Positions 5,187-64,000 of a DNA stretch of 64,000 nucleotides are shown in pieces. How positions within the stretch are numbered: position 1 is the stretch's first letter; each line of letters starts with the position of its first letter. Source of the stretch: Cymbomonas tetramitiformis (lineage: Eukaryota; Chlorophyta; Pyramimonadophyceae; Pyramimonadales; Pyramimonadaceae); the NCBI GenBank assembly GCA_001247695.2, contig LGRX02035488.1, positions 1-64,000 on the forward strand, written 5' to 3'. The translations under genes were made by a program, and so were the position numbers. The notes beneath the pieces are model-generated. The model saw only the letters and a list, made by a program, of their open reading frames with translations, did not search any database and was not told the DNA's origin.

Positions 5187-5248
5187 CCACCAGAAGTCAA
5201 ACGATCCCAAAACGAAAAAGCGGACCTGCAGGCACAGCTGCCGGTGAG

Positions 5249-28782: not shown

Positions 28783-28792
28783 CAGATATTGC

Positions 28793-43439: not shown

Positions 43440-43951
43440 GAAAAAAGTGCTCATTAGCTTAATGAGCACTTTTGCTCAAACTGTGACAAAGATAGAAATT
43501 CAGGCGACATGTTTAGGTATTCAAGGTAAGTAGGAAAAAGTGCTCATTAGCTTAATGAGCACTTTTTGCCTAAACTGTGACAAAGATAGAAATTCCGGCA
43601 ACCTGTGTAGGTATTCAAGGTAAGTAGGGAAAAATGCTCATTAACTTAATGAGCACTTTTTGCCTAAACTGTGACAAAGATAGAAATTCCGGCAACCTGT
43701 GTAGGTATTCAAGGTAAGTAGGAAAAAGTGCTCATTAGCTTAATGAGCACTTTTTGCCTAAACTGTGACAAAGATAGAAATTCCGGCAACCTGTGTAGGT
43801 ATTCAAGGTAAGTAGGAAAAAGTGCTCATTAACTTAATGAGCACTTTTTGCCTAAACTATGACAAAGATAGAAATTCCGGCAACCTGTGTAGGTATTCAA
43901 GGTAAGTAGGAAATAGTGCTCATTAACTTAATGAGCAGATTTTCAGCGTAC
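43440..43951. repeat. intronic array of six palindromes, 94-bp period (transposase intron of B)
   Basis: Arms TGCTCATTA and TAATGAGCA around a 3-nt loop (GCT or ACT) occur at 43448, 43541, 43635, 43729, 43823 and 43917. In most copies the stem extends outward to AAAAAG / CTTTTT. The array fills the intron between exon 2 (donor at 43951) and exon 3 (acceptor at 43425) of the minus-strand transposase. Confidence 0.9.
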
Positions 43952-44249
43952 CGGTTTGTCACAGATAAAGTATTTAAATATGAACGTCGAGTCGATCGTG
44001 CGGGTACCATTTTTTGAAAGGTCTGATACCATCCATTCTTTACGGTCTTTTGAGAAAAATTCCAAAACATTTCTCGTTGCGCTGTCAGAGCTGAGATATG
44101 AAAATTCATAGAGCAATGAGTTTTGCAGTTGCATCTAAAAACAGCTATTTCTTGAATAGAGGCTTCAGAGAGGTTTCGAGCTTTCAAAGAAATTTGTTTG
44201 TTTTGCTTCTGTATCCTGACTGTGGACGTGCACTTTAACAAATATTTGT

Positions 44250-45720
44250 CTTAAATAGTGTTAAATAGTGTTAAAAAGTGTTAAATAGGCTCCGATTTAA
44301 CATTTCATGACCATATGTTAAAAATGGGGGTTGAAGTGTTAAAAATATTTAACCACACTTGTATAAAGTGTCATGGGCGGTTCAGTATTGGATGAGGACC
44401 ATATATAAGTATGACACAATGTTAAATAGTGTTAAATGGGGTGCGATTTAACATTTCAGGTCCATATGTTAAAGTTGGGGGTTGAAGTGTTAAAATTCAG
44501 GTCATAATGTTAAATGTCATAATGTTAAATTTTAACACTTTAGTGCGATATGTTAAAGTTGGAGGTGATAATGTTAAAAGGGAGGTGATAATGTTAAAAT
44601 GATTTAACATTATGACATGTCAAATTATGAACCGCATGTTTCCAAGGCATTTAACACTTTGTACGACATTGGTCTCAAGATGATTGGTTTTGATGCATTT
44701 AACACTATGACGTGTCACAATATGACACTCTCGTTTTCTAGGCATTTAACACTTTCTACTGCACATGTTACAAGCCGATTGGTTCTGATGCATTTAACAC
44801 TATGACATGTCAGAATATGACACTCTCGTTTTCTAGGCATTTAACACTTTCTACTGCACATGTTACAAGCCGATTGGTTTTGATGCATTTAACACTATGA
44901 CATGTCACAATATGACACTCTCGTTTCCTAGGCATTTAACACTTTCTATTGCACATGTCTCAAGGTGATTGGTTACGATGCATTTAACACTATGACGTGG
45001 CACTATGTGACACTCTCGTTTCTAGGCATTTAACACTTACCGCACATGTTACAAGCCGATGGTTCTTGGCTTATTTAACACTATGACATGTCGTAATATG
45101 ACACTTCCGTTTTCTAGGCATTTAACACTTTCTTTACCGCACATGTTACAAGCCGATTGGTTTTGATGCATTTAACACTATGACGTGTCAGAATATGACA
45201 CTCTCGTTTTCTAGGCATTTAACACTTTCTACTGCACATGTTACAAGCCGATTGGTTCTGATGCATTTAACACTATGACATGTCAGAATATGACACTCTC
45301 GTTTTCTAGGCATTTAACACTTTCTACTGCACATGTTACAAGCCGATTGGTTATGATGCATTTAACACTATGACATGTCACAATATGACACTCTCGTTTC
45401 CTAGGCATTTAACACTTTATATTGCACATGTCTCAAGGTGATTGGCTATGATGCATTTAACACTATGACGTGGCACTATGTGAATGCCTTCAACAGTGAG
45501 GCATTTAACACTTTGTACTGCACATGTCTGAAGCTGATTGGTTCAAATCCATTTAACACTATGACGTGTCACAATATGACACTCTCGTTTTCTAGGCATT
45601 TAACACTTTCTACTGCACATGTTACAAGCCGATTGGTTCTGATGCATTTAACACTATGACGTGGCACTGTGTGAAGCCTTCAGGTTCTAGGCATTTAACA
45701 CTGTGAACTGCATGTCTTTG
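44250..45720. repeat. left subterminal repeats of C: TTTAACA motifs and a ~95-bp tandem array
   Basis: The first 350 bp are strings of TTAAATAGTGT and TGTTAAAT. From about 44600 to 45710 a ~95-bp unit (GATGCATTTAACACTATGAC ... GGCATTTAACACTTT) recurs about eleven times (for example 44787, 44882, 44977, 45164, 45260, 45355). Each unit holds two TTTAACACT sites. CACTA elements usually carry such subterminal sites for the second transposon protein. Confidence 0.85.
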
Positions 45721-45779
45721 AATAATGTCTTTGGTTCGTCTCCAACTACTTTTGCTGGCTTGTAATAATTCAGATTGCT

Positions 45780-45876
45780 AGCATCCCTCAGGCCACACGG
45801 CCGTAACAGGACACAGAACTATAACGCATCCCTGCTGTCTGCATCCCTGAGGCCACAGGGCCGCAACAGGACACAG
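45780..45876. repeat. two 22-nt-loop hairpin motifs (C family)
   Basis: Copies at 45780-45817 and 45841-45876 have the core GGCCACA(C/G)GGCC followed by GTAACA or GCAACA between CATCC and GGA. The arms here are short and imperfect. Confidence 0.6.
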
Positions 45877-45932
45877 AGCAAGAACGCGCGCAGAGTAGGC
45901 AATCAAGGTGCGTGGAGCAGCTACACTATCTC

Positions 45933-47976
45933 CTATGTGGGCTTGCTGCGCAAATGTCGCAGCCCCCGGAACAAGTAAATTGCGTGCATGTCGCCACCAG
46001 CCTCGGGTCTATGGAAGATCACCTTGTTTTGGATGCAGCTAATAGGTAGAATGAGTTCCCGCGCGGAGGCCTCGTCCAAAACGTCGATTCCCACGCATTG
46101 CACGTTGGGTGCGGATTTTGTGGAGTAGATCCTCATTTTAGCAAGGCGGCAGATCACATTATTCTCTTCCTTGCCGAGTATCAAGTAAAAGGATAAAATG
46201 GTCGCATAGGTATGCTGCAATCCCCACGCAGGAGGGCACTGGATGCCAACATTGTAAGATACGCGCTGCTTGGCTAGAGTATATGCCACTGAAGTAAAAT
46301 CATCCCCATCCATATGCATTCTGGCATATTGTTTGAACACGGTAGTAAGTGGTTCCTCGCATACCTTCACCCCATGGAGTGCAAATATCAAATCTGTGAC
46401 CATCTCTTGAAGGACACGGTTGTCGCTGACAAGTTGAATATCGGTGCATGAGCTCCGGGTTGCTGCACCCAGGAAGTAAACGCCATCATCCCTGCATTTG
46501 TCCTCATCCCCGACAGGCCGTTTTCGAATTACTTTCCCTGGAACAATGCTGAGCAGATCAGCCAACTCTCGCATTTCCTGGTGTGAGAATTGGTAGTCAT
46601 CCAGTGACTGCCGCATGGTTAGGCGGTTTCCCATCACGATATCAGGGAAGTTCGTTGCATTTTGTACGCAGCCCTTCATCGCTTGAACCCCGCGTTCAAC
46701 CCAAAACTCCATGATGGCACTCACACTTCCAAGAACCAGCTCTTGGCGAGGGAGGTGGACCACACACAGCCGCAAATTCAAGGTGAGCATGTTCAGCGGG
46801 CATTGTTCCTCGAGGATACATGCAAACCTCCACATGTCCGAGGTTGCCTGCGTCCTGGCACTGGAAAAGGCTGCATCGTCCGTATAAACTGTTGCGCCGC
46901 GCATGTAAAACAAGCACGCTCGCCTCAGCAGATTCCATGCCTCATTTAGGTGCTCATTCAGATCCAGGAGCTCCTCCCCAAGCACAATCATTCCATAATA
47001 CAAGACAAAACTCAACATGTCCTCCATCGTATACATCCCTGCAAGGTGTGAGAGGGAAGGCCACTGGTTAGAACTCTCTCTCTCTCTCTCTCTATCAACG
47101 TCTAACTAAACACCATCTCTGCATTCACGCTATTCCAAGATGGTTTCAGTGAATACAAACTCGGGGGGTTTTAGAAAAGGGTGACCGCAAGAGGGCATAC
47201 CCAAATATTGAACAATGTCTTGGTATCCTCGTGCCATATCCGAAGGTGGTTGCAATCCAACACCCCTGGCTTGTATTCTGGATAAGGCCTCTGTCGAAAA
47301 CACACACTCATACTTCTCACAATGATCCACCTTTCCAAGCAGCATTTTGAAAAAGAGTTTGCTGATACCGTAACAGAAACTGTGCCCAAATGGTACACAG
47401 TAAGCCCAAATGGGATCAAAATAGGGGAGCTGCTCGAGTGGCCCTGATGAGTATCGCCCGCACGCCATCGGAGTATGCCCGCCGTTCACCACAGCATCCA
47501 CCAAATGAAGATGGTCCTCGTGGGATAGCATGGCGCGCTCATCATTTGCATACACCAGCTCGTCACCCATCCAAGTCTGTGATATAGGTTCCAAGTACCC
47601 TTTACTGTACATACCATGCCCATTAATTCCAGAGGTACCTTCCCACAGACTCCGCGCATCATTTCGACGAGCCGAAACTGGTGCGAAACAGCCTAGATCG
47701 TTCCTGGCCACAGTATCACAGTGGACAACTGACAAATACACGAACATCTACTCATGATGTTTTTTGAAGTGTCCATCATACACGCGGAACCCATTCATCA
47801 ACTCCAATAGTTCGCGTACAAATGGGTAGAGTAAGACGTGTACGTTTTTCCATTTCTGTCGTGGTCCCGGTGACAGGAAGACGGTGGCCACAAACCGCCC
47901 AGACATACGAAACTGCACACATTCCATGAATCGTGGCTCCACCACCCCATCCAACCCCACCCACTATGCTGACCAC
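45933..47976 (-). pseudogene. EnSpm/CACTA-like transposase of C (tnp2- and DUF4218-like)
   Basis: Three open blocks follow each other. Block 47976-47748 (ECVQFRMSGRFVATVFLSPG, VHVLLYPFVRELLELM) runs in the same frame, across a TAG at 47748-47750, into 47747-47130 (SVVHCDTVARNDLGCF, DDERAMLSHEDHLHLVDAVV-like acidic region, LPYFDPIWAYCVPFGHS). This is the tnp2-type pattern with HCDT and YFDPIW blocks. Block 47036-45933 has LRLCVVHLPRQELVLGS and EFWVERGVQAMKG, the DUF4218-like pattern that follows tnp2 in EnSpm transposases. An intron of about 90 bp containing a (CT)n run probably separates 47130 and 47036. The in-frame TAG suggests an inactive copy. Confidence 0.7.
47073..47096. repeat. (CT)n microsatellite
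   Basis: A run of CTCTCTCT... lies in the presumed intron between two transposase blocks of C. Confidence 0.8.
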
Positions 47977-48028
47977 GTTTCCACGCATTGAAAAGCATGC
48001 AATTGGTGAGACTATTCACTTTAAAAAT

Positions 48029-48973
48029 TCACTTGCTACATGCGTTTCTCCAACACACCTTTAATGGCAGGTCGCTTGGTCGTATGAATCCAAACCTGGA
48101 AGACCACTGCCTGAGCTTGAGCGCATCCCACCCCATCCCAAATAAACAACTGGCATGTGTTGTTCTCCAATTGCCATAGTCGGTGTCCCAGATGTGCGTC
48201 GGTACAACTCTACTCCAGGCGTAGCCCTCTGCCTGACCCTCTGCCTGGTTGATGTGCTCCGCCAATGGACTTCCCACCTTGACCATGTGAACACGCACAT
48301 ACTTCCAATCTCCGGGCATGGCAAGCACTGAGAGGCTGTTGCCATCGGTCAAGTCAAGGGACAACACAATACGATCAGCAAACGGATAGTTGGTTTGCAT
48401 TGTTTTGGGATGCAGCACACAGGTGCCAGAATTGCCAAATCCAATGGTCAGCACGAACCAGGAGGAAGTGGCCTTTCCTTGTAACAGGAAGGCCATGCGC
48501 TTGGCCCATGTGGTGATCCCGCGCAGCTCGAACTCGCCCTCTTTCGTTTGATGTTTTGCAAACACCACCCGAATGTCATGTTGACCATTAAAGGTACAAA
48601 ACCATCCCGCAGGCCTCCAAGTGAAGGCGCGGACGATGAGCTTGAACTCTCCACCAGTGGTCTTGACATACTTCACTGCCAACAAGTGAAGTGCGATCGC
48701 CACTGTGAAGAAATTTATCAAGACAACGAGTCCTTCTGTCATCTGATAACATGGAAACCAACCACAGGCCACATGGCCGTAAGAGGTATGGCCCCATGAC
48801 ATCGGGTGCACTTGAACAACGTATGGAATATGTGTGGACGGGAAATTCCGAATGGCATGACGTTGCTTGACATGCAGACTTTGGATTCCGCGGGAAAGAA
48901 ACCCAACTCTAAGCGACATATAGTCAAGTACTAATAAGAGCGCCTCAGTCGCTGTTTGTCCTACAAATCTCAC
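48029..48973 (-). CDS. ORF of unknown function upstream of the C transposase
   Basis: The 314-codon frame starts with ATG at 48973. It has one strongly hydrophobic stretch (LVVLINFFTVAIALHLLAV) and several Trp-rich segments, but no family was recognised. A copy of the GGCCACATGGCC hairpin (48755-48792) lies inside it, which is unusual for coding sequence. It may be the N-terminal part of the transposase, a second transposon protein, or partly non-coding. Confidence 0.35.
   Translation of the reverse strand: MRFVGQTATEALLLVLDYMSLRVGFLSRGIQSLHVKQRHAIRNFPSTHIPYVVQVHPMSWGHTSYGHVACGWFPCYQMTEGLVVLINFFTVAIALHLLAVKYVKTTGGEFKLIVRAFTWRPAGWFCTFNGQHDIRVVFAKHQTKEGEFELRGITTWAKRMAFLLQGKATSSWFVLTIGFGNSGTCVLHPKTMQTNYPFADRIVLSLDLTDGNSLSVLAMPGDWKYVRVHMVKVGSPLAEHINQAEGQAEGYAWSRVVPTHIWDTDYGNWRTTHASCLFGMGWDALKLRQWSSRFGFIRPSDLPLKVCWRNACSK
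48755..48792. repeat. 22-nt-loop hairpin motif, inside ORF 48029-48973
   Basis: CCAACC and GGTATGG flank the core AGGCCACATGGCCGTAAGA. Confidence 0.6.
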
Positions 48974-49528
48974 AATGTTTCCAAAATAATTAATACTAAG
49001 ATGCCTCTGTAGGTGGCTCTAATAAAGGCATTGATGCAAAGGTGTTCATATGAAGGTATTGGGATGGGCGTGGGATAAAACACACCTGACGGGTCCAATG
49101 CAAACAGTACACACAGACACGACAGGAAATCTAACATACCCCAAAGTAACCCTGACAACAGCCTTGAGGTGGCTCTACAGCTTGCTCTAAAGCAATGAGC
49201 ATCGAAGGCAATCAAAGGCAACAGGCACGATATGGGCGTGGTAGAAAGCACACCTTGAAGGAAGTGTAGCCTTGTGGAAAAGTAGTAGATGATGTACTCG
49301 ATCCAAGGGCGGATACTAGAAGCTATTAATAACCTTTGACAACCACGCGAAAATGAAACATCCAGCGGAAAATGAAACATCCAACAACCGTTCCCCAGCA
49401 ACCATTAGATTTTCATCAAACTTTCAACACAAGAGTTCAGCGCCGACTTCTAGTATTCAAGATGACACACCAGGCCACTATATATTCAGATTAACTTATA
49501 TAATACTATATAGTCAGATAGCAACTTT
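48974..49528. other. intergenic stretch of C without a supported gene
   Basis: A minus-strand frame (48970-49401) is hydrophobic and repeat-like, without any family signature. A 14-bp motif AAATGAAACATCCA occurs twice near 49350. Confidence 0.4.
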
Positions 49529-50014
49529 TTAGTTAACCAATGTGTAACGTCCCCATACATGATCGATCAACTGTGTACAGTAGGGGCATGTCCTATACCC
49601 TCTCGAGGCGCTCCGCATTACGGCTCCACAATGCTGCCTACATATGGCGAGGCCACAAATCCGGATCCTACGCTGTTGCCTGGGCGTCACTCCGTCAGCC
49701 TCAGGTTGGAGGCCATTTTGGAATCCTTCCTGGCGGCACAACTCGCACCCCAGGTAAACATCGTCATTACGGGGATGAGTGGTTTGGGGTATTGCTTCCC
49801 CAGGCAAATTGGCCCGACATACGTAGGATTCATAGGCATCCAACGATACTATGTCGGGGTTTGCTTCGGGGCCGGATACCACCTCCCAAGTCTCATCCCC
49901 TGCCTCCCAGAGAACTAGGGCCTCTTGAACCCGCTGTCTATTAACGGTACGGAACCTAACTCGCAAGATTGAATTCACGATGTAACGGTCATTTGTTAAC
50001 TCCATCACCTGCAT
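49529..50014 (-). CDS. chromodomain-RING-like protein of transposon C (161 aa)
   Basis: ATG at 50014. Residues ~8-65 (RYIVNSILRVRFRT...ALVLWEAGDETWEVV...IVSLDAYESY) follow the chromodomain pattern, including the W..(G)..TWE core. Residues ~90-150 carry CELC, CGLAICRQHCG and CPYC in a RING-like arrangement. A chromodomain could steer the element or its protein to methylated histone tails and the RING could act as a ubiquitin ligase; both are inferences. It lies just downstream of a hairpin (50022-50062) and codes on the same strand as the transposase. Confidence 0.6.
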   Translation of the reverse strand: MQVMELTNDRYIVNSILRVRFRTVNRQRVQEALVLWEAGDETWEVVSGPEANPDIVSLDAYESYVCRANLPGEAIPQTTHPRNDDVYLGCELCRQEGFQNGLQPEADGVTPRQQRRIRICGLAICRQHCGAVMRSASRGYRTCPYCTQLIDHVWGRYTLVN

Positions 50015-50021
50015 TCAAGAT

Positions 50022-50062
50022 GACACCACACCAGGCCACACGGCCGTAAGAGGTGTAGGGTC
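50022..50062. repeat. 22-nt-loop hairpin motif, 5' of the chromodomain-RING gene
   Basis: ACACC and GGTGT flank the core AGGCCACACGGCCGTAAGA. On the minus strand the hairpin lies just before the ATG at 50014. Confidence 0.65.
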
Positions 50063-50299
50063 ATGGACTACTCAGGGTTCACTGGTATTCAAGACGAAGA
50101 CAACACAGACCATAATGAGGGACCAGGATCTGAAGATCGATGCAGCGCGGGTCAAAACATGCACTAATTGTATACACACACTTTACAATAAACCGCTGCT
50201 CAAAGAGCAGAGCAGAGCTTCTGTGGTGACCTACACTACACTAATATGTGAACGTTTATCTCTGCGCGTATTCTGTCGGATCGGATATGCGCGTGGGGA

Positions 50300-52345
50300 T
50301 CACAACATCCCACTGAACCGCGCGCGGGGGCAGATGAGGAAATCACCATGCTAAACATGGCACTTGCCTGTTCAATGAAGCCTTCATGTCTCTCTGTCGA
50401 ATGTAGTGCTCCCCCCGCCTTGAGGTATGTAGCCTTTTGTTGACATACACACATTTGCAAGGAAGTAGAGCCCACTACATCCCACTCCTGTGAGACGCCG
50501 GTAGTAGAGTTTTGGGAAGCTAGCGGGGGTCGTGTAGAAAATAATGAGGGACCATGATCCCAGCAGGCAGCAGCCTAGCTACGCAAGTACAATGGCAGCA
50601 GCACAACATCCCACCTAACCGCGGGGGCAGATGAGGAAATCACCATGCTAAACATGGCACTAGCCTGTTCAATGAAGCCTTCATGTCTCTCTGTCGAATG
50701 TAGTGCTCCCCCCGCCTTGAGGTATGTAGCCTTTTGGTGACATACACACATTTGCAAGGAAGTAGAGCCCACTACATCCCACTCCTGTGAGACGCCGGTA
50801 GTAGAGTTTTGGGAAGCTAGCGGGGGTCGTGTAGAAAATAATGAGGGACCATGATCCCAGCAGGCAGCAGCCTAGCTACGCAAGTACAATGGCAGCAGCA
50901 CAACATCCCACTGAACAGCGGGGGCAGATGAGGAAATCACCATGCTAAACATGGCACTCGCCTATTCAATGAAGCCTTCATGTCTCTCAGTCGGATGTAG
51001 TGCTCCCCCCGCCTTGAGGTATGTAGCCTTTTGGTGACATACACACATTTGCAAGGAAGTAGAGCCCACTACATCCCACTCCTATGAGACGCCGGTAGTA
51101 GAGTTTTGGGAAGCTAGCGGGGGTCGTGTAGAAAATAATGAGGGACCATGATCCCAGCAGCCTAGCTACGCAAGTACAATGGCAGCAGCACAACATCCCA
51201 CTGAACAGCGGGGGCAGATGAGGAAATCACCATGCTAAACATGGCACTCGCCTGTTCAATGAAGCCTTCATGTCTCTCTGTCGAATGTAGTGCTCCCCCC
51301 GCCTTGAGGTATGTAGCCTTTTGATGACATACACACATTTGCAAGGAAGTAGAGCCCACTACATCCCACTCCTGTGAGACGCCGGTAGTAGAGTTTTGGG
51401 AAGCTAGCGGGGGTCGTGTAGAAAATAATGAGGGACCATGATCCCAACAGGCAGCAGCCTAGCTACGCAAGTACAATGGCAGCAGCACAACATCCCACTG
51501 AACAGCGGGGGCAGATGAGGAAATCACCATGCTAAACATGGCACTCGCCTATTCAATGAAGCCTTCATGTCTCTCAGTCGGATGTAGTGCTCCCCCCGCC
51601 TTGAGGTATGTAGCCTTTTGGTGACATACACACATTTGCAAGGAAGTAGAGCCCACTACATCCCACTCCTGTGAGACGCCGGTAGTAGAGTTTTGGGAAG
51701 CTAGCGGGGGTCGTGTAGAAAATAATGAGGGACCATGATCCCAGCAGGCAGCAGCCTAGCTACGCAAGTACAATGGCAGCAGCACATCCCACTGAACAGC
51801 GGGGGCAGATGAGGAAATCACCATGCTAAACATGGCACTCGCCTATTCAATGAAGCCTTCATGTCTCTCAGTCGGATGTAGTGCTCCCCCCGCCTTGAGG
51901 TATGTAGCCTTTTGGTGACATACACACATTTGCAAGGAAGTAGAGCCCACTACATCCCACTCCTGTGAGACGCCGGTAGTAGAGTTTTGGGAAGCTAGCG
52001 GGGGTGGTGTAGAAAATAATGAGGGACCATGATCCCAGCAGGCAGCGAGCAGCCTAGCTACGCAAGTACAATGGCAGCAGCACAACATCCCACTGAACAG
52101 CGGGGGCAGATGAGGAAATCACCATGCTAAACATGGCACTCGCCTATTCAATGAAGCCTTCATGTCTCTCAGTCGGATGTAGTGCTCCCCCCGCCTTGAG
52201 GTATGTAGCCTTTTGGTGACATACACACATTTGCAAGGAAGTAGAGCCCACTACATCCCACTCCTGTGAGACGCCGGTAGTAGAGTTTTGGGAAGCTAGC
52301 GGGGGTCGTGTAGAAAATAATGAGGGACCATGATCCCAGCAGGCA
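50300..52345. repeat. seven-copy ~296-bp tandem array
   Basis: The landmark GGGGGCAGATGAGGAAATCA recurs near 50331, 50628, 50924, 51214, 51512, 51806 and 52107 (spacing 290-301 bp). Units are 95% or more alike by eye. Each has short palindromes, CCATGctaaaCATGG and ATGAAGCCTTCAT, and the motif GGGACCATGATCCC. Open frames inside are short and repeat with the unit, so it is taken as non-coding. Confidence 0.9.
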
Positions 52346-52552
52346 GCAGCCAGCAGCATAGCCGTGCAGGTAGAACAGTTCACAGGTACAACAGGTACAG
52401 GCTGCGCACAACCAGGTACAATATAGGCTGCACCAGCCTCACATTTCAAAGATTCAATCCGTTTTGTCTGAGACAACTAAACATAAATAGATAGTTAAAT
52501 TACAGTACCAACTAGTTCAACTTAAAGTACAGGTTAACTTCTACTAGTTAAC

Positions 52553-52882
52553 TTAGCTCCAAACAATGTTACAAAGCGGGCAGGAAACACTTATCTTGCA
52601 ACTTCTAAGAAAAGCAGTAAAGCAAGGCAAGTGGTAAAAGACATTTTTGCAGCCACAACCTAGTCCATTTGTGGCTGCCTGGGTTTCACTAACCTCCTCT
52701 AAACAGATTGGACAAATCTTAGGCTCGACAGTTGGCAACAACTTGTCTAGGAGCCGTTCTACAGAGAAGTCTTCCTGACTCCCTTTGGAGCTTGAACCGC
52801 CTGTCTGAGTTTCAGAGGGTCTTTCGTCTTCAAAGCTTAGAAAAGGAAAGAGTATTTTCATAATTTCGTCGTCACTTTCCAT
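52553..52882 (-). CDS. RING-finger protein of transposon C (109 aa)
   Basis: ATG at 52882. An acidic N-terminus is followed by a C-terminal RING-like motif: CPICLEEV, CGCKNVFYHLPC and CPLCN (C-x2-C, C-x-C, H-x2-C, C-x2-C). RING proteins usually act as ubiquitin E3 ligases. The start codon directly follows the hairpin at 52883-52916, so in the transcript the stem would abut the AUG. It is coded on the same strand as the other C genes. Confidence 0.65.
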   Translation of the reverse strand: MESDDEIMKILFPFLSFEDERPSETQTGGSSSKGSQEDFSVERLLDKLLPTVEPKICPICLEEVSETQAATNGLGCGCKNVFYHLPCFTAFLRSCKISVSCPLCNIVWS

Positions 52883-52916
52883 GAATCCCTGAGGCCACAA
52901 GGCCGTAGCAGGATTC
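52883..52916. repeat. 22-nt-loop hairpin motif, touching the RING start codon
   Basis: GAATCC (52883-52888) and GGATTC (52911-52916) flank a 22-nt loop holding GGCC-ACAA-GGCC. Confidence 0.8.
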
Positions 52917-53064
52917 AGTGAACGATGGAAATAACAGGGAAAGAAAACTTAAAAGTTCAGCCGGCAAAAACAAAATCGATGAAAACAGTGCACACACGAC
53001 AAGTGTGCAATCACACACCAATGTAACCCTCACAGCATCCCTGCAGGCACAACACAGCACAGCA

Positions 53065-53102
53065 CAGCATCCCTGAGGCCACAAGGCCGTAGCAGGATGC
53101 TG
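53065..53102. repeat. 22-nt-loop hairpin motif with perfect 8-bp stem
   Basis: CAGCATCC (53065-53072) and GGATGCTG (53095-53102) flank the same 22-nt loop as the copy at 52883. Confidence 0.85.
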
Positions 53103-53340
53103 TCAAAGGTTGGAGTAAAAGTCCACCAACTGCAGACATAAAAAAAAACTAGCTCCACAAGCACAATGCAAGTCCCAGTTGCAAATGTTTTCATATTATC
53201 CTATGCTGGTGTATGTTCCCAAGAAAACTTGGGCACTTCTGTGGGCACTTCTGTTGGCCCAACGCAGCATACCAGTGTAAAACTATAGCATGAGGCAAAA
53301 AACCCCGATGAAAACAGTACACCCTGGAACGACTTTTAAC

Positions 53341-53560
53341 AAACCCCTTCAAACCGCTGACAACATCCCTGAGGCCACATGGCCGTAACTCGATACAGTC
53401 AGAGGTTTGAAGGGGTTTGACAATTAATTAAAAAGGAAAAACTGATGGATGAAAACAGTACACCCTGTAACGACTTCTAACAAACCCCTTCAAACCTCTG
53501 ACAACATCCCTGAGGCCACATGGCCGTAACTGGATACAGTCAGAGGTTTGAAGGGGTTTG
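53341..53560. repeat. tandem pair of long hairpins with the same loop core
   Basis: Two units (53341-53420, 53481-53560) have arms of about 21 bp, starting AAACCCCTTCAAACC and ending GGTTTGAAGGGGTTT, around CATCCCTGAGGCCACATGG and the rest of the loop core. The units are direct repeats about 140 bp apart. Confidence 0.8.
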
Positions 53561-53819
53561 ACAATTAATTAAAAAGGGGAAAACTGATGGATGAAAACAG
53601 TACACTCAAAGAAGACTTCTAACAAACCCTCACACACATACACATTACACACCCCATGAAGAATACAAGAAGAAAGCGTACCTCCTCTGCTGGCTGCTGA
53701 AGCTGCTTATAACTTCGTTAAAAACTTGGAGTAACTGTCCCACCAAAAAAAAAGAAACCAAACAACAGCCCGCTCCATCCATAGGTAACAATTAGCTAAA
53801 CCGCCCAGCGATGCGTTTT

Positions 53820-54137
53820 CTAGCAGGCTTCGCTCCATTCATAAGTACCAAATAAAGAATGCAGGTCAAGGAAAAGAGGAGTACGCGTACCTCCTACAAA
53901 AACTTTGCTGAAGACTTGATAAAGTGAAGTAGCTGCACAGCAATAAAGAAGGGTAGAAAAAACCTCCCAAAAGCTCGCTAAGATGCCAAAAACAATTAAA
54001 GCAATTAAAGCAAAGAGGGCACCCGCCCAGGCAAGGAAACTCGTTTGATTCTCTCTCCTATCTCTCCTGTCAAAGGTTGGAGTAAAAGTCCACCAACTGC
54101 AGATATAAAAAAACCTAGCTCCACAAGCACAATGCAA
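53820..54137 (-). CDS. possible small membrane protein in C (105 aa)
   Basis: The open frame contains a long hydrophobic stretch (AWAGALFALIALIVFGILAS, then FWEVFSTLLYCC) that could span a membrane once or twice. It begins inside a dispersed repeat and has no recognised family, so it may be chance. Confidence 0.25.
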   Translation of the reverse strand: MHCACGARFFYICSWWTFTPTFDRRDRRENQTSFLAWAGALFALIALIVFGILASFWEVFSTLLYCCAATSLYQVFSKVFVGGTRTPLFLDLHSLFGTYEWSEAC

Positions 54138-54227
54138 GTCCCAGTTGCAAATGTTAACATATTATCCTATGCTGGTGTAAAGCGGTCAAGCTGCTTGATT
54201 TACTAAGTACTAAGAAACTCGGAGAGA

Positions 54228-54386
54228 ACTGCGCAGTCCTTAGGCCACAGGGCCGCAACAGGACAGAAAACTAGAACGCATCCCTTATCTGCATCCCTGA
54301 GGCCACAGGGCCGCAACAGGACACAGAACTAGAACGCATCCCTGCTGTCTGCATCCCTGAGGCCACAGGGCCGCAACAGGACACAT
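54228..54386. repeat. three further copies of the loop-core motif
   Basis: Copies near 54228, 54291 and 54351 contain AGGCCACAGGGCCGCAACAG and short partly paired arms (AGTCC/GGACA; CTGT..TCC/GGAcACAG). Confidence 0.6.
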
Positions 54387-54689
54387 AGCAAGAACGCGCG
54401 CGGAGTTTCTTAACCTTAACTTAAAGCGAGGACACCAAATAAATCAATCTACTAATTACATGCAACAAGGAGGATTTCTACCTTCAGAATTTTCAAACTC
54501 GCGAATGGCTCGTAACTTGCTCCTAAGCTGTGCCTTATTCATTTGCCGCGGCCCCGCCCATACATCCCATGCATCGCTGTCCACGCAACGATGTGCTATA
54601 TATGTAATAGCCGCGCGCGTCACGCCACGTACCCGCGTCTGTCTATCTCCGCTAAAAAGCTTCAACCAATGAGCGAGCGAGTTACTCAT

Positions 54690-54940
54690 GTTTAACACGC
54701 CCCTAGAAAATATATATCAAGAATCGGTGGTACAGACATCAACCTGATCGATTTAACATTCTCACACCAATAATGTTAAATCTTGTCGACTGACTTCACA
54801 TCGTTGTTAAATCGGAGAGGTGTCCCTTTTTCTTTATCTTTTAAATTAGGGTAATGCATTTAAACGGAACTGCCCATATTTAACACTATTTAACACTATT
54901 TAACACTATTTAACACTATTTAAGACAAATACTCATTCCA
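54690..54940. repeat. right subterminal repeats of C
   Basis: Scattered TTTAACA and TGTTAAAT motifs end in four direct copies of ATTTAACACT at 54880-54922. They mirror the left end as part of the terminal inverted repeat. Confidence 0.85.
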
Positions 54941-55482
54941 GTGGTGTAAGCGGCTCTTTGCTTAGTAGTGTTTTTGAATTTCCCGTTTAGCACACTTTCG
55001 ATGTTTTCTTTCCCTACACTATGTGTGAGAAAGCTCGCCTCAAGGCTTTGAGTTATCCCATTAAAGTCTACACTCGCGATCTTTCTTGTAGTAGACTCTT
55101 GCGTGGCTAATGAGCAATTGCTACTGAATGAGCGCGTTGGCGACTTTGGAGGTAAAGCGGTAATCGGAGTTTCAGCTCTTAGCGAGTTGATTGGCGTACT
55201 CGCGAACGGAAAGCAGGGAAAGCATATTAACTCATCGACACAGTCTGACTTGTAGACCGATGAGCGAATCGCGTTCTCTGGCGATGAGCGAATAGCGGTC
55301 TTTGGCGATGAGCGAATAGCGGTCTTTGTCGATGAGCGAATAGCGTTCTGTGTCGATGAGCGGAGAACGTCAGTATTCAAGTCTACGACATCGTCTACTT
55401 CAGTTGCGTATGTTAACTTGTTTTGCGAAAGATCTATGATCTCGTCTATTTGGCCTGCAGAATTTGGCCAGAACGACTTCAT

Positions 55483-55878: not shown

Positions 55879-56406
55879 ATGGCTTCGCCAGAACAGTTCA
55901 AAGCGGTCGTGCAGTCAGGGAACACAACAGAGTTCTTACAGTTCCGATGGGCTGTAATGAGAAACAGCGCGAACCAATTAGAGCTTTAAATATTTCCCAT
56001 CGACGCCCTTGAGAGCCCACCGGTGTTGCACAAAATTCCGGTTTATACCCCGTCCGATACAGAGTCTCCCCTGCGCGTGTGCTATCCAGCTAAGCACGCG
56101 CAGGGGAAGGCAATGTATGTCATCATTGTCAGAGACTCGCAAATTACTTCCACCTGCCTTACCGCTGCAAACCTGATCAGCAGTTCGGTCGCGCCAGCAT
56201 ACACTACAAGGCGCGACCGTTTCGATGAGCTGGTTAGAGTAGCGAGCGGAAAGGAAGAGGCATTCTCCACCTTCATAAACGATATGTGGAGAAACAGCCA
56301 CAACGACGACTTCTGGAAAGCCCCTGAGAAGTCTGGTCAGTCGTACGCTACCTTGGACGAGACGATAGACACAGAGATGGGTGGAGTCAGTGTTCTGCCG
56401 ACACAG
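55879..56406 (+). CDS. exon 1 of the transposon B accessory gene (with in-frame TAA)
   Basis: ATG at 55879 opens MASPEQFKAVVQSGNTTEFL. After 36 codons there is a single TAA near 55987, and the same frame continues (IFPIDALESPPVLHKIPVY) to a donor CAG|GTACGA at 56406, phase 0. The continued frame shows protein-like composition (HAQGKAMYVIIVRDSQIT). The TAA is most likely a disabling mutation. Three downstream acceptors (57445, 57985, 58651) are all in phase 0 with this donor. No family was recognised. Confidence 0.6.
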
Positions 56407-56414
56407 GTACGAAA

Positions 56415-57320
56415 CCCGCTCATTAGCTTAATGAGCAGTTCTGTTCACTCTCCTTTGTCGTGTCATAGTATGACAAAACTGCCCTTCTTACCTGATCTTA
56501 AGTGTGTGTGATAGTAAAAGGTTTCTACTTTTTTCTATTGTCGTGTCATAGTATGACACAAAGCCACTTCCTACCTGAGCGTAGCTGTGTATGACCAAGA
56601 AAGTCCGAACCTGCTCATTATCTTAATGAGCAGTTCTGTACACTTTTCTCTTTGTCGTGTCATAGTATGACAAAAAGCCACTTCCTGCCTGAGCTTAGCT
56701 GTGTATGACCAAGAAAGTCCAAACCTGCTCATTATCTTAATGAGCAGTTCTGTACACTTTTCTCTTTGTCGTGTCATAGGATGACAACAAGCCACTTCCT
56801 GCCTGAGCTTAGCTGTGTATGACCAAGAAAGTCCGAACCTGCTCATTATCTTAATGAGCAGTTCTGTACACTTTTCTCTTTGTCGTGTCATAGTATGACA
56901 AACAGCCACTTCCTGCCTGAGCTTAGCTGGGTATGACCAAGGAAGTCCAAACGTGCTCATTATCTTAATGAGCAGTTCTGTACACTTTTCTCTTTGTCGT
57001 GTCATAGTATGACAAAAAGCCACTTCCTGCCTGAGCCTAGCTGTGTATGACCAAGGAAGTCCAAACGTGCTCATTATCTTAATGAGCGCTCCGTACACTT
57101 TCTCTTTGTCGTGTCATAGTATGACAAAAAGCCACTTCCGCCCGAGCTTAGCTGTGTATGACCAAGTAAGTCCAAACGTGCTCATTATCTTAATGAGCAG
57201 TTCTGTACACTTTTATCTTTGTCGTGTCATAGTATGACAAAAAGCCACTTCCTGCCTGAGCCTAGCTGTGTATGGCCAAGGAAGTCCAAACGTGCTCATT
57301 ATCTTAATGAGCAGTTCTGT
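56415..57320. repeat. intronic array of eight palindromes, 114-bp period (B, intron 1)
   Basis: TGCTCATTA / TAATGAGCA stems (loop mostly TCT) occur at 56612, 56726, 56840, 56954, 57068, 57179 and 57293, with a related first copy at 56419. Each unit also has a second palindrome, GTGTCATAGTATGACA. The first copy lies 12 bp from the 5' splice site. Confidence 0.9.
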
Positions 57321-57444
57321 ACACTTTTATCTTTGTCGTGTCATAGGATGACAAAAAAAGGCAGGTCCTACCTGAATTCAGCTGGGTATGACCGAGAAAA
57401 GTCGCCAATGTGTCACCATTTTTGTACTTGTTTTATTTTGGCAG

Positions 57445-57915: not shown

Positions 57916-57984
57916 AACATCAATTTCTAATTAATTTTGTACACTGGAAATAAAAATTGTTTTTCTTGTTTTTATTGTTGACAG

Positions 57985-58461
57985 GACGAATATGAAGATT
58001 TGTTTCGGAAAGCATTCTTCACTGTAGTCATTTCTTGGATAAGCATAACAATACGAGAAGTGAATGAATACCGTGAAAAACGTTTTATTAAAGATTGGGT
58101 TGAAGAACGTTTTATGTGGGCGCTTGAGGAAAAAGTGTCCATGCATCGATGGGACTTTGGCAATGACACTAATGATGAAATCATGATTCCAGTTTCTCTA
58201 GCTTGGTATTCCTATCGGTTACCTGGCCGATTACCTAGTGTTGCCTGGTCATTTACCTTTTGGCAAGACTTTACCTACATCTATCATCAAGATTCTTCTC
58301 CAGTTTTCGAAAGATTTTATTGGTGGAGTCAACACTATAAGTGTCCTCGTTTAGCAATAACTAGATGGTTGTATGATATGCATACTTGGTACTACACGGG
58401 TAGATGGCACACTCCTAGAGGTGTAGAATACATTGATGAATACCCTGAACTCTCACAGTAA
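57985..58461 (+). CDS. 'WYY' terminal exon b of the transposon B accessory gene
   Basis: The exon follows acceptor TTGTTGACAG and encodes 158 residues (DEYEDLFRKAFFTVVISWIS, RFIKDWVEERFMWALEEKV, FYWWSQHYKCPRLAITRW, LYDMHTWYYTGRW) to a TAA. It is phase-compatible with exon 1. Exons a and b look like mutually exclusive last exons that arose by tandem duplication. Confidence 0.65.
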   Translation, partial: DEYEDLFRKAFFTVVISWISITIREVNEYREKRFIKDWVEERFMWALEEKVSMHRWDFGNDTNDEIMIPVSLAWYSYRLPGRLPSVAWSFTFWQDFTYIYHQDSSPVFERFYWWSQHYKCPRLAITRWLYDMHTWYYTGRWHTPRGVEYIDEYPELSQ

Positions 58462-58577
58462 AACACCATTTTTTTGTAAAGTATAATGAAAATATATTTT
58501 AAGAAATATTGCATAGCATGACATATAAGGGCATTTATGCACGTACGCAGCTGTGTATGACTGACAAAGTGAGAAAC

Positions 58578-58602
58578 TGCTCATTAGCTTAATGAGCAAT
58601 AT
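58578..58602. repeat. single copy of the intronic palindrome (B, intron before the ParB exon)
   Basis: TGCTCATTA-GCT-TAATGAGCA lies about 50 bp before the acceptor at 58650, in the same setting as the arrays. Confidence 0.85.
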
Positions 58603-58650
58603 TGCACCGTTTTAGTTTGTCACTAAATTTATTGGTGGGATATTTTGCAG

Positions 58651-61600
58651 ACTTACAAGACAGCTGTTGAGCTCGAAGAGATTGCAAAGTCTCATGGTCC
58701 CGGTGGTAGCTTACTGGATTACAAGCAGGGAGAAACTGCTAAACAGGCAAAAGCTCAGAATGAGGAGCTCGCTTCGCAGGATTGGAAGTCTCTTCTTACC
58801 TTGCCAAAGGTTAAACGTCCAGTCCAGGATGCAACTACCATTCGCTACAACATCGAGTTCCACCACCGGTACCCGAGGGTAGTGGATACCAAGGATGTGA
58901 TGGGATGTACATTCAGTATCCCCATTCAGTATATTCAGCAGGCTGAGGGCTACGAGCGAATCAGGGATGAGGATCGGGCTCAAGTCAACAATCTGAAAGA
59001 CAGCATGGCTTGGAACCCATACTCTTTCCAGAACAGCTCACTTGTATATGTTGTAGACAGAGCCACTGGTGAACAATTGAAGTCCGCCTCGGAGTTCAAT
59101 GTGAATCAAGTTTTAGAAGGCAAATATATTTTCGTGTGCTTTGGGCACCAACACAGTCTTACAGCTCGGCGCGAGCTTCATGCCGAACAGCCTACTAAGG
59201 AATCCTGGTGGCAGATCGAATGCAAGTTGTATATCAATTTGCAATCAGACATGGTCAGGTTCTTGGCCGACAAACAGAATATGGTCGACCAGAACACCAA
59301 GGGCAAGACTCATCAACAAATAATGAAGTCAATGCGCGTTGGTATGCAGGTAATTTTACTAAGTGATGATTGCATTTGTGCATGTATACAATCAAATTAG
59401 ACTTTTGTGACTGTAGCCTGTCTAAGTTGATGACCAAAATGGAATTTTTGCGGTCGGTATGCAGGCGCAAAGGGGCCCCCTCCACAAGCTGTATTGGCAT
59501 TGTGGTATCACTGAGTGGGACCCCGCCACCGATGACTGGAGGGAGCATGGATTCTTGGATTGGTGAAAGAGTTAGCTAAACAATATCCATCACTGTTTGG
59601 GCTACCAGAAGATCCAGAATCACGTTTGAATGTCTACACAAATCTTAGTAATCAGGATTGGAACAATGTAAATGCCTGGCGATTCTTTGGACAACAGGTA
59701 AAAAGAATTTATATGATGAATAAATATTATACATTGTTGCCTATACTTGGATGTGAATTACTGCATCAGTTCAGAAACTGCTCATTAGCTTAATGAGCAG
59801 TTTTGTCCAGTTTTACCAAGTCATACCCTATTATGACATCTTAGCCCCTATTATTCGTCCTTTACTGTGAATATCTGTATCAGTTCATAAACTGCTCATT
59901 AGCTTAATGAGCAGTTCTGCACCGTTTTACCAAGTCATACAATATTATGACATCTTAGCCCCTATTATTCGTCCTGTACTGTGAATATCTGCATCAGTTC
60001 ATAAACTGCTCATTAGCTTAATGAGCAGTTTTGTCCCGTTTTACCAAGTCATACAATATTATGACATCTTAGCCCCTATTATTCGTCCTTTACTGTGAAT
60101 ATCTGTATCAGTTCAGAAACTGCTCATTAGCTTAATGAGCAGTTTTGTCCCGTTTTACCAAGCCATACAATATTATGACATCTTAGCCTCTATTATTCGT
60201 CCTGTACTGTGAATATCTGTATCAGTTCAGAAACTGCTCATTAGCTTAATGAGCAGTTTTGTCCAGTTTTACCAAGTCATACAATATTATGACATCTTAG
60301 CCTCTATTATTCGTCCTGTACTGTGAATATCTGTATCAGTTCAGAAACTGCCCATTAGCTTAATGAGCAGTTCTGCACCCCCTTTGCTTATTCATGGCAT
60401 AATATGACGTCTTATTCACTCTTACCTGTACTTTGTTGTGTATGACTTCAGGTGCCAAATGGCAAATGGTGGCCTGTTTGGGATTATTTGACCGGGGCTC
60501 AGCAGAATCAAATCAAAGCGGAAGTTCTATACATGAATCACATCTCTGTGGCGAACGAGTACGCCACGAATTGGACAATTGCTACCACGCGCCAGGATAC
60601 TTGGGACCTTGTTTCAAAAATCATGCAGATGTTCCGTGAAAATTTGCTGAAGGGACAAACAAAGACCCCCTCCAAGGCTGGAAAGGGCAAACGCAAGGCT
60701 GCCTATGATCTAGACAGCGATGTCGTCGACTTGTCAACAGAAACAGCTGGAGCGGAGCAGGCGTTGCAAGACGTTGGTGTCGACCCCAAGCAGAAGAAGA
60801 CCGGTAAGAAGGCCAAGTCTAAACTTCTTCCTCGAAGCGCTGCTAACACGTTGAGTGTTGGGCAGCCGGCACAGCCTTTGCAGCAGGCGATCGTGAAGGA
60901 GTTGGAGAAGAAGGAAGTGAGTATGAGCCTGTTTCATAATATGCTTGGGTTTAACTCGAACATCGAGATAGACTACCTCAACAGTATACTACGGACGATC
61001 ACAAATATCGAAATTAGCATCCCTGAAGCCGGCGACATCATGAAGAAGTTCAAGGCCCAACGCAATGTCCAAGCCTGGATTGTGTCACAGTCCGGGGTGG
61101 CGGATTGGGATGCCTTCGAGACAAAATATGGTGAGCTTTGGGCAAGCCAAGAGAGCATCGAGCGGTGCATCAAGGCGGTGAAAGCTGGAAAATCAGGACG
61201 AGGCGGGAGTGTGCAACAGATTCCCAAGTCCATCATTCAATACGTCGCCGACGCCAACACGTGGCTTGAGAGGTGTGTTGCCGGAGCAGGAGACCTAGAG
61301 AAGCTGCCACTGCAATACACTTCCGCCGAAATCCGGGTGAGTGACAGAGACTGCACGCCATTTTGCATTACGGTTTCAAAAAAACTCACTACAACGGAAT
61401 TTTATATCGTTTAAGTATCGACAACGTGTTTTGCGGCACAGGCGAAACTACCCACACCCGTCGTGGAGGTGGGCGACGAACCGCCTGAGGTCGAGTATGA
61501 TACCAAAAGTCTCAAGCCCGCATACATGATCCTCGAGGACGAGTTGACGAAAATGGACACCATCCCCAAGTTGAATTATGTGGGGGTGATCGTTGACTGC

Positions 61601-62536
61601 GTTTACGAATTGGATTATGAGGAAGTTACGAACAGGCTATCTGAAGCCGAATTGATCAAGATCATCGACGCGTTTGCGGCGCTCACTACCGCGCCAGACT
61701 GGTCGGTAGTAATATTTTGTGGGTTCGCACAACAGTCCAACTTCCTGAAGATTCTGGAGAGCAAATGCAATGGTGCTGCCCAACGCATATGGTGGCACAA
61801 GAAGAATGCTTCAGTGGGAGCCAACAAAAACATCAGGTATAATGCCTTGGAGGCGGCGGTCATCGCGTTCCATATGGCTGAGGTAGAGCCCGGGGTACAA
61901 TCCACTCGCAAATCCTGGATGGCAGATTTCGACCTGGATATCGAGCACAAATCGAGGGCCAACGTTCTCAAGGGGTTTTCGGTGGTCAAGCAACCCTTTA
62001 GACTCGACGGAAAAGTCGTATGTGCTCACCAGAAGCCCCAACACCTATTGGAGGAGCTGATTACCTGCCACATGATGGGACCCGCACCCTTTACGGGATT
62101 AACGCACAACGCGATGCCCGATTCATCAACCAACTGGATCTTGGATGCCGGGTGCGGGGTTGCGACCGCCACCGTGGCTGCGCTCCGGATCGGCCTCAAT
62201 GCGGTCGCGTTCGACAATGATCCCGACATGGTGAGTGCCGCAACTCAGCGGCTCGGGAATATCGATAAGGAGGTGAACGGGAATACGGAATGCATGTCCC
62301 TGGAGGAGACTAAAGCACTCGAAAAAGAAAAGGAACAAGAGGAACAGAGGCAAGAGAATGCGGAGATCCTGAAAGGGCTAGAGGATGTGGAGGATGTGGA
62401 TGTGGAGTTTTTGCAAGGACTCGAGGCCGCAGCGCAAGCAGCGGAAGCCCGGCAAGCACCTGTTGAAAATCCTGCACCGGAGCGGGCGGCGGATGCTGAC
62501 GCGGAGAATGATGAAGCAGCATCGATGGCCGAATAA
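58651..62536 (+). pseudogene. ParB-like domain + beta-class N4/N6 DNA methyltransferase-like protein (B accessory gene)
   Basis: Phase-0 exons: 58651-59349, 59465-59697, 60452-61336, 61442-62536. Exon 58651 holds a ParB/Srx-like domain: VMGCTFSIPIQYIQQ, YERIRDEDRAQVNNLKDSM and YIFVCFGHQHSLTARREL (the last matches the G.HR..A..EL box). A one-base loss near 59555 separates HGFLDW from LVKELAKQYPS. Exon 60452 has a basic linker (KAGKGKRKAAYD) and helices. The last exon follows the beta-class order: motif IV position VGVIVDCVYELDYE (DPPY expected), SVVIFCGF, RIWWHKKN...YNALEAAVIAF, then motif I ILDAGCGVATATVAALRIG with NAVAFDNDPDM, and an acidic coiled-coil tail. ParB-methylase fusions are common in phages and bacteria, so lateral origin is likely. 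Catalysis is doubtful because of DCVY. Confidence 0.75.
59775..60375. repeat. intronic array of six palindromes, 114-bp period (B)
   Basis: AACTGCTCATTA / TAATGAGCAGTT stems occur at 59779, 59893, 60007, 60121, 60235 and 60349 (the last with one mismatch). Each unit also holds GTCATA..(A)TAT..TATGAC. The array fills the intron between 59697 and 60452. Confidence 0.9.
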
Positions 62537-62875: not shown

Positions 62876-63054
62876 TTTACTATAAACACTCATACGTGTC
62901 TATCTATTATCCACATCGGCAGCCGCGTTTATACTTGCGTCTCAAGTTTCGTCATGATACACGGTATTTTCATACGAACTTAGAATTATTTAGCCATCTA
63001 TAATTAAATTAAAAAATGACATTGCATAATGTCGTTTTCATCGAATAGCGTGTT

Positions 63055-64000
63055 GAATGACCTTTGTATCCTTCACGGGTTGTTGCACACGTGGTTCCCC
63101 TACCGAGCTTCGAGAAGAAGTTCCCAAGATATCGGTGGTGGCCACAGCAACCTTTGAGCGCAGCTTGGGGGTAGTGAGCTTCTCGATAGCGGCCAACGTT
63201 CTTCTCAAGATATCGGTGGTGACCACAGCAACTTTTGAGCGCAGCTTGGGGGTAGTGAGCTTCTCGATAGCGGCCGACATTTGCTCCCCCAGCTTCTTCT
63301 TAGTGGTCGGCTCCGGTGGTGTCGGGGTGGCTGCTGCCACCAGGTATAGCGCCTCGTCGAAGGGGTGCTTCTTCTTCTTGTCAAGGTTTACCATCACAGG
63401 AGTCGATAACGGCGTAGTTGGCTCGGGCGGTTCAGGTGCAACAGCCGCCAATATGTACTGCTCCTCGAGAGAGCGTTGTACTGTCCCTCCCCCCCCTTGG
63501 CCCGCCAGGAGCCCGAAGCCCTGTCCGCACTACGTAGAACGAAGAAGGGAGTAGGCCCCGCAGCACCGCGAGTGCTAGGCTCAAAAGGTCTCGCCGAGGC
63601 CGAAAGAACACGAGGAGCATCTCGACAATCCGCAGACATCTCACCCGGCCGGGAATTCCCCGCAGGCTGGTGCGCAACCCGACGCCGGTCTCGCCAGGCG
63701 ACTGGCGAAGACGGTGCAGGAGGCGGCACCGAAGTTGCCGAAAAAGTTGAAGTAGGTGGAGAAGAACTCGACGCCATTCCCGCAGAAATTTCGTCCAGCG
63801 CTTCCGCCGCAAGGGGTATGGGTGAAGAGTGAGGCAAAGCGCAAACTCAACCAGAGCGAAGATCTGCCAAATATAGCCAAACACAACAAGATCCGAAGAT
63901 CCGCGGCGTAATCCAAGCGCGCAGGCGTTTATGTCAGTGCGAATTGGGCAACCAAGACTGCTCAAGGGCTAGGATAACGTGTTCAAGACCACCCAGCGCG
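63055..64000 (-). pseudogene. Gag N-terminal region, part 1 (element E), right of transposon B
   Basis: Frame 63451-63055 encodes AAVAPEPPEPTTPL and two copies of AAIEKLTTPKLRSKVAV (a 66-bp direct repeat at 63110-63280), ending QPVKDTKVI at the transposon junction. It continues in frame with the piece at 40788. Upstream, 63837-63452 is open in another frame (Pro/Ser/Arg-rich), so the true frame further 5' is uncertain. The region runs off the window. No start codon or LTR is assigned. Confidence 0.5.

Follow-up and report, generated by a model that had tools for sequence, protein, structure and literature searches.

A terminal inverted repeat (TIR) transposon of the DUF7869 type has multiplied in the genome of the green alga Cymbomonas tetramitiformis, and arrays of a 21-bp palindrome, TGCTCATTAnnTTAATGAGCA, are tied to it. 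We describe this element in a window of 64,000 nucleotides, positions 1 to 64,000 of contig LGRX02035488.1, which is contig C25299 of the 851.7-Mb genome that was searched. The transposon spans positions 40793 to 63054 of the window and contains a divergent pair of genes: a DUF7869 transposase on one strand and, on the opposite strand, an accessory gene whose predicted product joins a candidate ParB-like region to a homologue of beta-class N6/N4 DNA methylases (hereafter, the ParB-methylase gene). The arrays suggest a role for this accessory protein: it may bind the palindromes and thereby recognize its own element, for which we see a nearly even chance.

The window contains 21 sites of TGCTCATTAnnTTAATGAGCA (at most two mismatches), all within the transposon and none in the nested element that it carries or in the flanks; shuffled sequences gave no sites. 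Repeat and palindrome searches place six of them in an inferred intron of the transposase gene (43448..43937, period of 94 bp), eight in intron 1 of the ParB-methylase gene (56417..57313, 114 bp), one directly before exon A of that gene (58578..58598) and six in the intron between exons B and C (59779..60369, again 114 bp), none with an assigned strand. The intron 1 array also includes a second palindrome, TGTCATAnTATGACA, nine of whose 17 matches fall in intron 1, while the other eight, with one mismatch each, are in the nested element. Genome-wide, TGCTCATTAnnTTAATGAGCA has 562 exact matches on the forward and 589 on the reverse strand (1,151 strand matches), versus none on either strand for the reversed-pattern control. 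Among the matches listed, 100 places on 16 contigs were sampled, and 16 regions on 14 contigs were examined; a transposase exon or exon 1 of the ParB-methylase gene lies beside the sites in 13 of the 16. In the initial annotation of this locus the arrays went unnoticed, and so did the nested element, the transposase partner and the lesions of this copy.

The element falls into several groups of copies, among them the window type and the common type, and the arms of the palindromes are far more constant than the sequences between them. In 15 arrays, with only modal-length units counted, one of 1458 arm positions differs from the array consensus, versus 219 of 6044 spacer positions. Likewise, spacers of the transposase-intron arrays are only 38–40% alike between the window type and the common type, but the arms are the same. 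These values bear on the possibility that the arrays are neutral minisatellites or intronic RNA hairpins. The tandem arrangement within introns fits such an origin, and intronic hairpins can influence splicing; however, neither the contrast between arms and spacers nor the occurrence of the same arms amid unrelated spacers is expected of minisatellites, and hairpin function alone permits compensatory changes, whereas the arms of the counted units hardly change. We consider this explanation improbable. A different possibility is that the DUF7869 transposase uses the palindromes for binding or regulation, the ParB-methylase protein having its site of action elsewhere. Binding to repeated subterminal motifs is familiar from plant CACTA and other transposases, and arrays of the common type were seen only beside the transposase exon. 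Yet 15 of the 21 sites in the window lie in introns of the ParB-methylase gene, in internal rather than subterminal positions, and palindromes suit dimers of the ParB type. We hold assignment of the sites to the transposase to be rather unlikely.

A distant relative on contig C5210 keeps the layout with another palindrome. It encodes a DUF7869 transposase on the minus strand at approximately 24–26 kb (51–54% identity in the main blocks, 26–38% elsewhere) and a ParB-like plus methylase gene on the plus strand at approximately 32.0–34.7 kb (32–38% identity), that is, the same divergent order as in the window element. Between the two genes there are 15 sites of a different palindrome, GCGCATCCGCGGATGCGC (GGCGCATCCGCGGATGCGCC), with at most two mismatches and five of them perfect, arranged in two arrays with a period of approximately 73 bp; a Markov control gave such a result in 0 of 200 cases. 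The TGCTC palindrome is missing from 18.5–40.1 kb of C5210, a stretch that also holds A–D exons of the common type, and the window has no site of the C5210 palindrome. The search for the ends of this relative did not locate them. Because the layout is kept while the palindrome differs, this single locus is consistent with co-evolution of a site-specific protein and its sites.

The methylase domain is encoded by exon D (61442..62536, plus strand) and was assigned by profile and alignment. The initial annotation had proposed a search against PF01555. The window exon itself falls short of the cut-off (E-value 0.0023; 18.4 bits versus 26.7), whereas the paralogue P0007 (~41%) exceeds the cut-off (7.1e-8; 33.1 bits). 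No NCBIfam model scored above its own cut-off for either the window exon or P0007. Matches to phrog_67 of 1.7e-5 and 1e-12 were obtained for the family. In an alignment to three phage enzymes (from Geobacillus phages PT9.1 and PK2.1 and Rhizobium phage RHph_Y52) and to protein P0039, motif IV precedes motif I, with the KP block before motif I: the phage sequence HPTQKP..L...LDNCMGSGTT aligns over the algal HQKP..L...LDAGCGVATA. Motif I, the KP..LL block and the acidic residue that follows are conserved. Thus, the domain is a homologue of beta-class N6/N4 DNA methylases, judging from profiles and motifs, and the proposed motif order and the intact cofactor motif, kept across the family, both stood. 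The phage enzymes share motif order and the aligned motifs IV, I and KP..LL with the algal protein, but differ from it in their tetrad and in not residing in a transposon.

The catalytic tetrad of beta-class methylases is canonically D/N/S-x-P-Y/F/W. DCVY of the window aligns with DLPY in the three phage enzymes and with DIPY in P0039; DPPY, taken earlier as the starting point of the change, is therefore not the tetrad of the nearest phage relatives. A tetrad could be read in 32 sequences, among them the window itself and some siblings that are nearly identical, out of at least 112 copies in the genome; the 32 span four groups (window type, common type, P0007 type and C5210). Their tetrads are DVIY (14), DCVY (8), DCNY (5), DGNY (2), DSMY, DAIY and DCEY (1 each). 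A further 18 proteins gave no tetrad match and comprise fragments lacking the region, ParB-side proteins and P0039. Hence D-x-x-Y without proline is found in 32 of 32 sequences, a departure from the canonical pattern, with D and Y invariant, position 2 varying freely (C, V, G, S, A) and the S-adenosylmethionine (SAM) motif kept. What is fixed in the siblings is D-x-x-Y, whereas DCVY itself occurs in only eight of the 32. The siblings thus reject DCVY as the mark of a dead copy, and with it the earlier suggestion of a loss of function specific to this copy.

Two accounts of the altered tetrad have to be weighed. The protein may be an active N6-adenine or N4-cytosine methyltransferase whose mark is placed on its own transposon, a role suggested for the brown-algal relative in the main text of PMC12477816. 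Conservation of motif I, the KP..LL block and the acidic residue, invariance of the tetrad D and Y and the fact that the phage relatives and P0039 have already left DPPY (DLPY and DIPY, respectively) are in line with activity, but the proline at position 3, present in all four aligned relatives, is absent from all 32 algal sequences, and position 2 is free; we regard an active enzyme as possible, somewhat short of an even chance. The fold may instead have been retained to bind DNA or SAM and transfer no methyl group. Loss of the proline in every group read would suit such a pseudoenzyme, as would low omega between subfamilies and frames that are mostly open. Against it, pseudo-methylases usually lose the SAM site, METTL14 being an example, and motif I is kept here; as far as the motifs can tell, the pseudoenzyme is an even bet. 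Whether methyl transfer is retained, considered by itself, is likewise near even. In a separate observation, the EukProt protein P0036 combines a methylase C-terminus of this family with a weak match to C5-cytosine methylases (PF00145, E-value 0.039).

The N-terminal relationships are less clear. Exon A (58651..59349, plus strand; an open frame supported by relatives) encodes the candidate ParB-like region (IPIQYI...NLKDSM...GKYIFVCFGHQHSLTARREL). The initial annotation called it a ParB-like domain, a label that the searches did not bear out: Pfam gave no match to the window exon up to E=5, PF02195 included, and no library gave a match to ParB. Comparison with hhalign to 51 ParB_N domains of plasmids, chromosomes and viruses was not significant (P 0.34–0.36, or 0.16 with the C5210 relative added). 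In this non-significant alignment, the first block of 31–33 columns sets IPIQYI over VPLASLI and the next helix; when a longer ParB_N alignment is forced, it is colinear over 93 columns and gapped at GHQH. The hidden Markov model score of the window exon was equalled by 228 of 1336 scoring shuffles, and that of the common type by 64. FGHQH is constant in the window type, the common type and C5210, and the choice of a counterpart of the GGRR arginine (H of FGHQH or R of ARREL) depends on the same non-significant alignment. A tblastn search of exon A in phages gave a single match (E-value 6), and viral contigs scanned with the exon A alignment and with the methylase alignment yielded no confirmed loci.

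The ParB-methylase gene occupies 55880–62536 on the plus strand and starts at approximately 55880, upstream of the span first annotated. Its predicted product has approximately 1145 codons over five exons: exon 1 (55880..56406), exon A, exon B (59465..59697), exon C (60452..61336, an open frame in which the library scan found no known domain, presumably a linker) and exon D, all on the plus strand. Splice sites were inferred from phase and relatives, and the exons join in phase apart from an in-frame TAA in exon 1, where the relative P0013 is open, and a net frame change in exon B, through which P0004 and P0010 read. The frames 58651–59349, 60452–61336 and 61442–62536 run uninterrupted, and the sequence shows GHQHSLTARREL, DCVY and motif I ILDAGCGVATATVAALRIG. 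Could the exons be parts of unrelated genes, joined by chance or misassembly? We found no evidence for this, and the siblings refute it: the order is the same in sibling contigs and in the relative of 32–38% identity, and gene models of relatives join exon 1 to A (P0013) and B to C and D (P0004, P0010), leaving a practically nil probability. The earlier claim of a multi-exon gene with a beta-class N4/N6 methylase fold inside a eukaryotic TIR transposon is therefore upheld by the joined exons together with PF01555 and phrog_67.

The genome contains at least 150 A exons, 146 of 150 being stop-free, and at least 112 D exons, 111 of 112 stop-free (window included in both counts). Of the 112 D exons listed, at least 49 follow a listed A exon at a distance of up to 6 kb, and one identical D exon is found in three copies on different contigs. 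The window copy is probably dead, because of the stop in exon 1 and the frame change in exon B, but the family is not, given the open relatives and mostly stop-free exons. Between the window type and the common type, omega (dN/dS) is 0.06–0.11 for exon A (dS of 2.2–3.1 or undefined, i.e. saturated), 0.26–0.27 for exon C, 0.22 for exon D and, against C10795, 0.14 for the transposase. By these sequence comparisons, purifying selection has acted between the subfamilies, in agreement with the earlier expectation of a ratio below 1. Within types the values are higher, as described below. Two related open stretches in intron 1 (57448–57912 and 57985–58458), 49% identical to each other and each following a splice-acceptor-like AG, are kept at approximately 93–99% in siblings L013, L016 and L019; a third remnant lies at 25664–25861 on the minus strand. 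Library scans gave no family match for the stretches in intron 1.

How might the accessory protein act? The ParB-methylase protein would bind the palindromes as a dimer, through the ParB-like and neighbouring parts, and its own element would be recognized through the arrays in introns around the shared divergent promoter. Once bound, it could alter the chromatin of the element or the output of transposase. One option is SAM-dependent base methylation with the altered tetrad; another, by analogy with the VANC proteins discussed below, is that the protein binds SAM and serves as a reader or blocker, holding host silencing at bay. Binding, the identity of the binder (most likely the ParB-methylase protein) and the outcome (methylation, anti-silencing or transposase control) are all inferred. 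A more specific version, which we hold to be doubtful, is that of a prokaryote-derived self-recognition module, in which a ParB/methylase with changed tetrad would load on parS-like intronic palindromes, protein and palindrome changing together between subfamilies. The prokaryotic parallel for palindromic arrays is parS.

Several observations weigh against self-recognition by this protein. Two of the 16 sampled array regions are without an element exon, and a third ends with its contig, which holds an A exon. When all 117 sites are compared with the palindrome itself, 8 of 2106 arm positions mismatch; as many as 6 mismatches in 18 were tolerated per site in this count, and its units are not independent. 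Part of the arm identity across subfamilies is built in, because a near-palindrome pattern was used to cut the units. In the copies of the common type that were read, the ParB-methylase introns have no TGCTCATTAnnTTAATGAGCA sites, the arrays being only by the transposase, and the binder among the element proteins could be the transposase. The swapped palindrome was seen at one locus, with 5 of 15 sites perfect. As for the protein, both AlphaFold models are poor: that of the methylase core (eight sequences) has a predicted local distance difference test score (pLDDT) of 48 and that of exon A (six sequences) one of 35, so the structure prediction was too weak to prove a fold. A Foldseek search with the methylase-core model placed N6-adenine methylases on top (CcrM, M.BceJIV, METTL3-METTL14) at TM-scores near 0.28. 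With exon A it returned 29 matches, all with E-values above 1, mostly to PB1 or ubiquitin-like folds and none to ParB, and P0012 has weak ubiquitin-like matches (PF11543, E-value 0.04; PF22893, E-value 0.14). Thus, the ParB identity of exon A is possible and unproven. Finally, omega is 1.2–1.5 between exon A of the window and its three closest siblings (27–29 differences; 1.2 on 29 for C225), and within the common type it is 0.45–0.55 for exon A and 1.1 on 23 differences for exon D. These high values within types, each from few changes, are consistent with relaxed decay after insertion, and the case for selection is confined to the comparisons between subfamilies. Because of the weak ubiquitin-like matches and the 8/2106 count, we lowered the probability of both the self-recognition and the prokaryote-module readings and raised that of the transposase sites. 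At L103 (C532) and L104 (C935), the 2.2–3.0 kb examined around the TGCTC palindromes show no element exon.

The transposon as a whole was delimited by its TIR pair, an empty site and siblings with the same ends. It is 22,262 bp long, or approximately 11.55 kb minus the nested CACTA-type element, with no strand assigned. The TIR element that had been annotated is thus real but larger than stated, and it includes the DUF7869 transposase and the nested insertion. An inverted-pair search gave 40792–40822 and 63025–63055, 31 bp with 93.5% identity, a pair that includes one base of the target site duplication (TSD). Sibling comparison sets the ends at AACACG...CGTGTT, with a left TIR of approximately 30 bp, AACACGCTATTCGGTGAAAATGACATTATG (40793..40822, plus strand), and a right TIR at 63025..63054 (minus strand). 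The TSDs, read by eye on the plus strand, are GAAC (40789..40792) and GAAT (63055..63058), with one mismatch between them, and identical 4-bp TSDs occur at two siblings, ATGC in C10795 and GACA in C23038, again by eye. A TSD of 4 bp is the rule for Sola elements, and that length is seen in the window element. The unoccupied target, GGTGAGAAC-GAACTTTG, is present in contig C225 (L017, 3270–3340). The full divergent pair with both TIRs was found in siblings C23038 (approximately 10.5 kb between TIRs) and C10795 (approximately 11.5 kb), and partial divergent architecture in C9638, C225, C14730 and C15913. Both the element and its mobility are thereby demonstrated.

The main exon of the transposase (41111..42892, minus strand) matches DUF7869 (PF25273) with an E-value of 1.7e-43, which places the enzyme in this family, and is 84–97% identical in siblings. 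An upstream exon with approximate ends (42976..43434, minus strand) was recognized from reading frames and sibling comparison. Judged by eye, gene model P0024 (CYMTET_20758) has a window-like C-terminal part of the transposase running into a methylase of the same family, and decayed frames at 28769–29921 resemble a DUF7869 transposase (VDGGLENWNRYVFGFMALLVHYDIYEKIELHRLQVGHTQ). The nested CACTA-type element (44231..54943, no strand assigned; TSD GTG, ends CACTT/CACTG) stands outside the system: it is missing from both siblings that cover its spot (L015, L018), and it has a weak match to DUF4218, under the cut-off. An inverted repeat at 44.2/54.9 kb, considered as an end of the transposon, was rejected and corresponds to the end of the nested element. 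The latter also contains tandem repeats of 95 bp near its left end (44602–45702) and of 297 bp (50301–52351). In C225 (L017/L018), the nesting is reciprocal, the repeat that flanks the transposon in the window being inserted within the transposon copy. Elsewhere in the window, 5033–16423 is an open frame of 3797 codons whose sequence is very rich in A (AT skew up to 0.52).

Accessory proteins of this kind have been reported before. The fusion of ParB and methylase domains is a phage and bacterial theme, as had been noted: bacterial Bce_0392, as described in PMC5512222, joins a ParB-like domain to an adenine methylase and has a reported nicking activity. By that description it resembles the algal protein in the fusion and differs in being prokaryotic and in nicking. 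Among transposons, the closest published case is Sola1-1_Ec32 of the brown alga Ectocarpus, 21.5 kb long, with an accessory protein of 1104 amino acids that the authors label ParB-like and N4C/N6A methyltransferase; such proteins are reported there from brown, red and green algal transposons, with no role shown (PMC12477816). By description, the likeness extends to a giant DNA transposon, an accessory gene opposite the transposase and a ParB-like plus N4/N6 methylase protein of approximately 1100 amino acids. The main text of PMC12477816, in contrast, contains no match to "palindrom" or "minisatellite" and does not mention palindromic arrays or a tetrad change. No other title or abstract opening on these features in such elements was found in a literature search whose range left out most subscription-journal papers and all preprints, and a search of the same range for DUF7869 returned no paper. 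Relative to the PMC12477816 main text, therefore, ParB-methylase accessory proteins of algal transposons are known, while the palindromic arrays and the tetrad change are new.

The strongest functional parallel, by analogy, is VANC of the plant VANDAL elements. To our knowledge, VANC is unrelated in sequence and has no methylase fold. VANC anti-silencing proteins are described as targeting motifs in tandem repeats, located in introns and upstream regions of VANDAL genes, and these motifs differ between relatives (PMC5735166). The likeness, a comparison of array anatomy alone, is that of an accessory protein encoded by a transposable element with motif arrays in introns of that element. VANC, in contrast, is described in the same article as causing loss of host methylation, whereas the Cymbomonas element has a 21-bp palindrome and is known from sequence alone. 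The arrays provide a concrete target site, the C5210 palindrome provides a control, and there are many open, recently multiplied copies, so that the role of the protein becomes testable. If a prokaryote-derived module is indeed at work, the element would gain an epigenetic or partition-like identity apart from host chromatin. If self-recognition through the arrays holds true, algal and plant transposons would have reached self-targeting motif arrays independently, one of them from a prokaryotic methylase fold.

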